From positions 1 through 31,374 of the IMG/VR virus record IMGVR_UViG_3300035034_000760: 31,374 bases of DNA; one strand, given 5' to 3'. The stretch comes from a virus. The notes beneath the pieces were generated by a model. The model saw only the letters and a list, made by a program, of their open reading frames with translations, made no database searches and was not told where the DNA came from. The position numbers and the translations under genes are program-made. Positions 10,663-11,452 of this stretch are shown here, piece after piece; the first letter of the stretch is position 1; every line of letters begins with the position of its first letter.

Positions 10663-10808
10663 AGAAGATATACATAGTAGAATTACCCAAAGGCACGAAG
10701 GTAGAAGTTATGAAAGGCATACAACGAATGTTAGAGAAAAAATTTCCCGAAAGGGGCTGGTTGGTTATGACAGAAGCTGTTAAAGTATACGAATTGGGAT
10801 TGGGATAA
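10659..10808 (+). CDS. Small hypothetical protein (49 aa)
   Basis: ATG overlaps the TGA of the A1-like gene (ATGA at 10659-10662) and its TAA overlaps the ATG of the terminase paralogue (TAATG, 10806-10810), so it fills exactly the space between two genes by double translational coupling, strong evidence that it is real despite its size. The product, beginning MKKIYIVELPKGTKVEVMKG, has an alternating strand then a helix and another strand (WLVMTEAVKVYEL), a small basic alpha/beta protein. No function recognised. Confidence 0.65.
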   Translation: MKKIYIVELPKGTKVEVMKGIQRMLEKKFPERGWLVMTEAVKVYELGLG

Positions 10809-11452
10809 TGCACCCCGCTATACATAATATTAGAAAACTGTGTGTGGGCCGAGAAGAGTCATATACTAGTCCGGCTCACACTTTTTTCAAATCTCCCGCT
10901 TGTGGTGTACAAATTAGTAGTGGTAACATGGGTTATAATAAATTTATCCCTAACCCACAACAACAGAAAGTATTGGCTTTTATAAATGACAATGATAATA
11001 GTGTAATAGTTGGCCCAAGACAGTCAGGAATTAGTACAGCCGTTATGGGATATTTTTTATATGAGTTTCTACATGCCCCACATCCAGTCATGGGAATTAC
11101 TGCAAACAGTTTTGCTCAAGCGAAGCACACGCTTGAAGAGTTTCGCGATCTGCTTCTCTCGGTGATGCCCGTGGGAAACATTGAAGTAGATAATCGTAAC
11201 GAGATTCGATTAAAAAGTACTGGTGCTGTAATAACTATTGATCACGATGTTAATGCCTTTAAGGGTATGGCTATAAAATACCTATATTTCGAAGACTGTG
11301 ATTTTGGTCGAACAGTTGATCAAAAAATTAATAACATTTTACCGGTCGTGAATACAATAAATGGTAGTAGAGTGATATTAGGCTCTAGTGGTGTGGGTAT
11401 ACCACCAGCGTTCCTTAAAAACCACCCCGCCTTTAACCTGTTACGGTTGTAA
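10808..11452 (+). CDS. Terminase-like ATPase-domain protein lacking Walker A lysine (214 aa)
   Basis: Aligns collinearly with the ATPase domain of the gp17 homologue 113 bases downstream. An N-terminal PNPQQQKVLAF matches [20 protein letters not shown] (69-77) sits where gp17 has SRQVGKT; IKYLYFEDCDFG (157-167) sits where gp17 has [12 protein letters not shown]; and VILGSSGVG (189-197) replaces the SSTPNG coupling motif. It then stops: no nuclease domain. The invariant Lys of Walker A is Ile and the Asp-Glu pair is Glu-Asp, so ATP hydrolysis is unlikely. It could be a regulator of packaging or a decaying duplicate, but the intact frame and coupled start argue for a maintained gene. The start could also be the ATG at residue 41; the TAATG overlap supports 10808. 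Confidence 0.7.
   Translation: MHPAIHNIRKLCVGREESYTSPAHTFFKSPACGVQISSGNMGYNKFIPNPQQQKVLAFINDNDNSVIVGPRQSGISTAVMGYFLYEFLHAPHPVMGITANSFAQAKHTLEEFRDLLLSVMPVGNIEVDNRNEIRLKSTGAVITIDHDVNAFKGMAIKYLYFEDCDFGRTVDQKINNILPVVNTINGSRVILGSSGVGIPPAFLKNHPAFNLLRL

Follow-up and report, generated by a model that had tools for sequence, protein, structure and literature searches.

A terminase-like ATPase domain without catalytic residues beside gp17 in giant phages

Introduction

In tailed phages, the packaging motor is regarded as a ring built from a single kind of active subunit. What, then, is a second terminase-like ATPase domain, stripped of its catalytic residues, doing beside the gene of an intact motor? 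The question is raised by a 31-kb IMG/VR fragment of a jumbo phage (IMGVR_UViG_3300035034_000760, positions 1 to 31,374, hereafter the window), whose large terminase (TerL, gp17) shares ~50% identity with its counterparts in XacN1, a Xanthomonas phage, and RAS14/CM1, which infect Stenotrophomonas. An earlier note, made from the letters alone, had read a gene next to gp17 as an ATPase-domain terminase paralogue with a lost Walker A lysine; this core reading is supported by the analysis presented here, and it extends beyond the phage of the window.

That some phages carry a gene of this kind is not new. A phage CBB paper of 2017 stated that CBB_274 and the corresponding genes of Rak2-like phages (GAP32_268) resemble a truncated large terminase, and it named phiM12/phiN3 too (PMC5259590); the truncated TerL paralogue of Rak2-like phages has thus been known since that year; the passage concerned deals with the truncated domain only and speaks neither of dead motifs nor of a function. 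Beyond that paper, searches of the open-access literature for a pseudo-ATPase terminase, a duplicated jumbo-phage TerL or an Avs decoy returned nothing. The literature searched likewise makes no mention of invariant catalytic loss, variability or selection in pseudo-TerL, or of its spread to XacN1-, Phosso- and Atu_ph07-like phages and many uncultured ones.

The gene and its neighbourhood

The pseudo-TerL gene occupies positions 10808-11452 on the forward strand, where the window genes and motifs named below with coordinate ranges also lie, and the earlier claim that it is intact was borne out by an uninterrupted ORF of 214 aa with an ATG start. In gene order it follows the small terminase gene gp16 (8368-8904; phrog_445, E 1.8e-10), a phrog_1745 'DNA transfer protein' gene (8956-10662), recognized by PHROG match and synteny as a conserved neighbour upstream of the pseudo-TerL/gp17 pair, and a 49-aa ORF (10659-10808), which has no database match and is missing from the sister phage described below. 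It is followed, 112 bp downstream, by an intact gp17 (11565-13148), identified by ORF, profile matches and alignment, in which the Walker A Lys and the Asp-Glu pair are present. The earlier note had also described the gene as coupled to the 49-residue gene. The one-base overlap between them (TAATG) is indeed there, and the claim is refined in that the tight packing ties pseudo-TerL to the upstream unit of gp16, the phrog_1745 gene and the 49-aa gene, not to gp17.

A motif scan found a weak T4-late-promoter-like ACTAAATA at 11531-11538, 34 bp ahead of the gp17 start, and TATAAATA-like sites of the same late-promoter type at 1526, 8335, 13147, 20850 and 24260, each 30-34 bp ahead of an ORF start. 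In total, the TATAAATA-like sites number 88 against 73 by chance, a slight excess, and scans of the window for sigma-70 promoters and terminators were at chance level. From the positions of the putative late promoters, we infer that gp16, the phrog_1745 gene and pseudo-TerL would be co-transcribed, and that gp17 may also have a promoter of its own.

A terminase fold with dead motifs

Profile, pairwise and structural comparisons all confirm that the product is an ATPase-domain terminase paralogue matching gp17. PHROG TerL profiles hit the protein at E 2.2e-13 (phrog_5989) and 5e-12 (phrog_2), with Pfam Terminase_6N sub-threshold at 0.0085; BLASTP against its own gp17, run as a single comparison, gave 5e-6, at 21% identity over 193 columns; and a leave-one-out profile of the other paralogues, from which the window protein was excluded, recovered it at E 3e-23. 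The AlphaFold model has a pLDDT of ~90 across residues 51-150 and no confident fold for residues 1-42. Its best PDB match is the ATPase domain of T4 gp17 (2o0h; Foldseek 2.3e-10), to which a VIA alignment gave a Z of 19.4 and an rmsd of 2.8 over 171 residues; together with the phrog_5989 match, these values place the RecA/ASCE ATPase fold of TerL in the window protein. Because of the profile, leave-one-out and structure scores, the relationship stands far above chance.

Compared with the ATPase domain of T4 gp17/TerL (PF03237, phrog_5989, PDB 2o0h), the window protein shares the fold, the motif order, the P-loop Arg and the RG-motif Gly, but lacks the catalytic Lys, the Asp-Glu pair and the nuclease domain. 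All three peculiarities claimed earlier, namely GPRQSGIST, FED in place of LDE and a missing nuclease domain, hold in the alignment with gp17. The degenerate Walker A GPRQSGIST (11012-11038), as against SRQVGKT in the window gp17, retains Arg, Gly and Ser, and its codon 11030-11032 encodes Ile75 where the gp17 equivalent is Lys. Gly153 (11264-11266), the Gly of the RG motif preceding Walker B, is invariant in all paralogues and gp17s. The degenerate Walker B, YLYFED (11279-11296), has Glu-Asp for the Asp-Glu of the LLYLDE in gp17, and VILGSSG (11372-11392) stands where gp17 has its coupling motif (ISSTPNG). The ORF stops just past the coupling-motif strand, 19 residues beyond VILGSSG, and reaches neither subdomain II nor the C-terminal nuclease domain of RNase H fold. 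The window gene thus encodes a TerL paralogue that consists of the ATPase domain, with the fold kept and both catalytic residues gone.

Without the catalytic residues, ATP hydrolysis by the known mechanism of P-loop ATPases is impossible. Judged from its sequence, the window pseudo-TerL cannot hydrolyse ATP in that way, nor cut or pump DNA on its own. Its Glu-Asp order in Walker B is shared with an engineered T4 gp17 mutant known from crystals, in which the change of Asp-Glu to Glu-Asp tightens ATP binding and leaves no hydrolysis (PMC9958956); in T4 gp17, Asp/Glu swaps alone abolish packaging (PMC9958956). Unlike the window protein, however, that mutant keeps the P-loop Lys and sits within an otherwise complete motor domain.

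The same losses run through the whole family. In the final alignment, none of 21 paralogues keeps the Walker A Lys (in its place stand I 6, G 4, T 4, V 2, L 2, S 2, A 1), and none of the 20 scored for the catalytic Glu keeps that residue, which gives way to N, D, S, A, G, C, I or M, whereas Lys and Asp-Glu are present in 35/35 tabulated gp17s. The paralogues retain the RG-motif Gly (21/21) and, in the P-loop, Arg (20/21), Gly (20/21) and Ser/Thr (21/21), a signature that fits a pseudoenzyme retaining its fold. One copy whose P-loop is missing (L140) was excluded from these counts. Five further Rak2-like paralogues show the same losses by inspection, and a homologue with a normal Walker A Lys was found neither among them nor among the 21 aligned. 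As to whether the change from Lys to Ile is conserved, the loss of Lys is and the Ile itself is not, as the position is taken by I, V, L, A, G, S or T. Neither a sequencing error nor a mutation confined to this phage explains the change, because Lys is also missing in the sister phage and in every other paralogue.

Distribution among giant phages

Homologues were reached by scanning IMG/VR for gp17s of the clade and then screening their neighbourhoods, that is, by gp17 synteny; a peptide-pattern search of viral and genome contigs for close homologues of the window protein had found none. ATPase-only TerL paralogues were recovered in a sister phage, in 11 other IMG/VR lineages, and in RAS14/CM1, XacN1, Phosso, Atu_ph07 and Rak2-like phages, mostly adjoining an intact gp17. 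A copy predicted to be dead, and never a live one, is carried by at least 20 giant-phage lineages. In the sister phage (L003-L008, one population), a 171-aa homologue with GPRASGITT and FVDDF lies at the same place; it is 33-35% identical to the window pseudo-TerL, compared with 76% for the phrog_1745 neighbour and 80-86% for the aligned gp17 segments. Pseudo-TerL adjoins gp17 in the window and in L008, L047, L125, L126, L129, L127, L130, L133, L134, L143, L150 and RAS14, and lies far away from it in Phosso and Atu_ph07. It is missing beside gp17 in many relatives, including L045, L046, L128, L131, L157 (one of the large contigs concerned, of 317 kb) and Munch-type Rak2-like phages, and is therefore not a required part of the motor.

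Leave-one-out profile searches clearly support all tabulated members except RAS14 and XacN1. XacN1 ORF261 was recovered at E 0.005, or 1.5e-4 once Rak2-like members were added, and its membership is of moderate confidence. The RAS14 protein was not linked by pairwise BLAST; its profile score was weak (E 0.53, improving to 0.028 with the Rak2-like members), and its membership (RAS14/CM1), for which synteny is the other support, is tentative. A model for the L129 copy, built from four paralogues and no gp17, returned TerL ATPases first, with packaging ATPases in the top 15 PDB places. As to a single or a repeated origin, the paralogues do not form one clade in the phylogenetic tree, although a single clade is not rejected (p-AU 0.26; many branches are long).

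Among Rak2-like phages, carriers are CBB, GAP32, Kaldavass, XbC2, BF, SNUABM12, RaK2, K64-1, 121Q and Hallingskeid. Their 'truncated large terminase' is, as in the window, an ATPase-domain-only paralogue directly upstream of gp17; CBB_274 matches the profile of the other paralogues at E 3e-16, and the Walker A Lys position holds L in CBB and GAP32 and T in RaK2 and 121Q, with the catalytic Glu missing too. The window copy differs in its shorter C-terminus and strongly diverged sequence, and it is preceded by phrog_1745, whereas an exonuclease (RNase H) gene and a small ORF stand upstream in Rak2-like phages. Still, the window protein shows the features of the family: it is related by profile, adjoins an intact gp17, and has lost both Lys and Glu. 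In CBB, GAP32, RaK2, K64-1 and 121Q, the 3' end of the paralogue overlaps the gp17 start by ~13-23 bp, so that the two genes are probably translationally coupled.

Several members have peculiarities of their own. The Phosso paralogue XYS97501.1 (L020:4809-5654), a Lys-less TerL ATPase domain, is annotated 'terminase small subunit', likely a misannotation. The L129 phage has a second, distant paralogue (L226:1315-2079, with L230-L234), a second pseudo-TerL type with TRQSGVTT and CDDF located ~80 kb from gp17, which shares a few bases with a resolvase gene of weak RuvC similarity (phrog_159, E 0.0012). In XacN1 ORF261 (L009:321-1106), the last 33 residues are 67% identical to residues 98-130 of a T4-type major capsid protein, and this tail is nearer to the T4-like capsid protein than is the capsid protein of XacN1 itself; a non-capsid ORF of Phosso (L244:1740-2356, ~182.24-182.86 kb) carries the same capsid segment. 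The segment in ORF261 presumably overlaps the T4 'Gol' segment, the trigger of the Lit defence.

Selection, tempo and decay

Could the gene simply be a functionless relic, left either by a tandem gp17 duplicate in decay or by the traffic of inteins and homing endonucleases? Broken copies do occur: in one phage, pseudo-TerL is cut past the RG motif by an IS607-type transposon that carries a serine recombinase and TnpB (L146:5727-8090), the L140 copy has lost its P-loop, and in L008 pseudo-TerL is followed by fragments of the N- and C-terminal parts of the TerL ATPase and the tail of a homing endonuclease, the start and end of that copy being uncertain. Against this, frames remain intact at less than 35% identity, and a stop-free neutral frame of 171 codons is expected by chance at ~3e-4 per lineage. 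Moreover, the P-loop keeps its Arg, Gly and Ser/Thr but not its Lys, and dN/dS is low. For Kaldavass/XbC2, pseudo-TerL has dN 0.069 and dS 0.456, a ratio of 0.15 (gp17: 0.024 and 0.524); for CBB/GAP32, dN 0.318 and dS 1.464, a ratio of 0.22 (gp17: 0.021 and 0.551). At ratios of 0.15-0.22, pseudo-TerL is maintained by purifying selection in these Rak2-like pairs, and the relic explanation, now very improbable, is thereby largely refuted at the level of the family. The decay in relatives that the earlier note had named as a counter-sign is thus local only (L146, L140 and L008), with most lineages intact.

Constraint goes together with rapid change. In the Rak2-like pairs, protein change in pseudo-TerL outpaces that in gp17 ~3- to 15-fold, and the excess of dS in CBB/GAP32 points to the replacement of alleles or else to saturation. 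The pairs or sets L230-L234, L129/L152, L047/L138 and L007/L008 have too few differences for dN/dS. Between L127 and L130, pseudo-TerL is only 35% identical, as against 95% for gp17 and 78-98% for comparable flanking genes; no DNA alignment exists within pseudo-TerL, and the boundaries with the flanks are sharp. The paralogues share 21-41% identity with their own gp17.

The sister locus has further irregularities. Poly-G stretches at L008:4800-4900 and 5480-5600 vary among contigs of the one population, and the sister gp17 (L008:6081-10341) holds two intein-like insertions (LAGLIDADG and HNH), both absent from the window gp17, the second of which spans a frame change in the assembly.

Possible roles

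The conserved catalytic loss, the selection and a change faster than that of the real motor indicate that pseudo-TerL probably does a job other than DNA pumping. The leading proposal, to which we give somewhat less than an even chance, is that pseudo-TerL serves the packaging complex as a partner or regulator that does not hydrolyse ATP. It would be made alongside gp16/gp17 late in infection, would bind the packaging machinery (gp17, gp16 or the face of the portal on which gp17 docks) as a non-hydrolysing mimic of the ATPase domain, and, once bound, may tune assembly, initiation or pausing of the motor. The retained P-loop Arg, Gly and Ser/Thr, with the Glu-Asp Walker B of the window, could leave room for nucleotide sensing without hydrolysis; the binding of ATP/ADP is the least certain step, because Lys is lost. 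The location beside gp17 and, in Rak2-like phages, the overlap with its start favour such a role, as does the loss of Lys and Glu in every paralogue scored against 0/35 gp17s, with the remainder of the P-loop retained. T4 motors that include ATPase-dead subunits remain able to package, at a lower rate and with more pausing (PMC8589836), so that a natural dead subunit is feasible. The phi29 motor with one functionally special subunit reflects the same idea, that one ring subunit need not translocate (PMC8589836); phi29 subunits are, however, identical gene products, whereas the dead-subunit candidate here is a separate gene. Against a regulator stand its optional presence, the short forms without subdomain II and nuclease domain, the copies distant from gp17 in Phosso/Atu_ph07, and a divergence far faster than that of gp17, as in L127/L130, which is odd in a subunit fitting a conserved ring.

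Optional presence and such variability would suit an immune decoy or a poison against rivals. Avs1-4 sense the large terminase or the portal through conserved structural patterns (PMC12931631), and one of the fold matches of pseudo-TerL is an Avs3-TerL structure, 8dgc. By showing the TerL ATPase fold to NLR-like TerL sensors (Avs1-Avs3) and binding them without triggering, pseudo-TerL might shield the phage once gp17 appears. A hypervariable decoy of this sort (or a poison against rivals), mimicking the immune-recognised fold as an allele cassette swapped between conserved packaging genes of giant phages, would agree with a gene that is dead, optional and the most variable of its neighbourhood with sharp DNA bounds, and with the hint of allele replacement in CBB/GAP32. 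Nevertheless, sensor binding would be expected to set Avs off, the nuclease domain is not on offer, dN/dS in the tested pairs is far under 1 and gives no hint of positive selection, and the literature searched holds no comparable decoy; PADLOC gave no noteworthy defence-family match. The decoy is accordingly rather unlikely. A dominant-negative TerL fragment that enters and stalls the rings of co-infecting phages or satellites, having diverged from its own gp17, is more improbable still. Dead subunits do join and impair T4 motors (PMC8589836), and the paralogues are strongly unlike both their own gp17 and one another in close relatives, but the parts thought to move DNA are missing in the short forms, and stable siting among the phage's own packaging genes better suits self-directed use.

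Implications

A selected dead paralogue implies either that some packaging motors have a dedicated regulatory subunit, the reading preferred here, or that giant phages carry mimics of the target of bacterial NLR-like sensors. The former, if true, would bear on how motor subunits are coordinated and paused, and the copies in coliphages (121Q) render both ideas testable in the laboratory.
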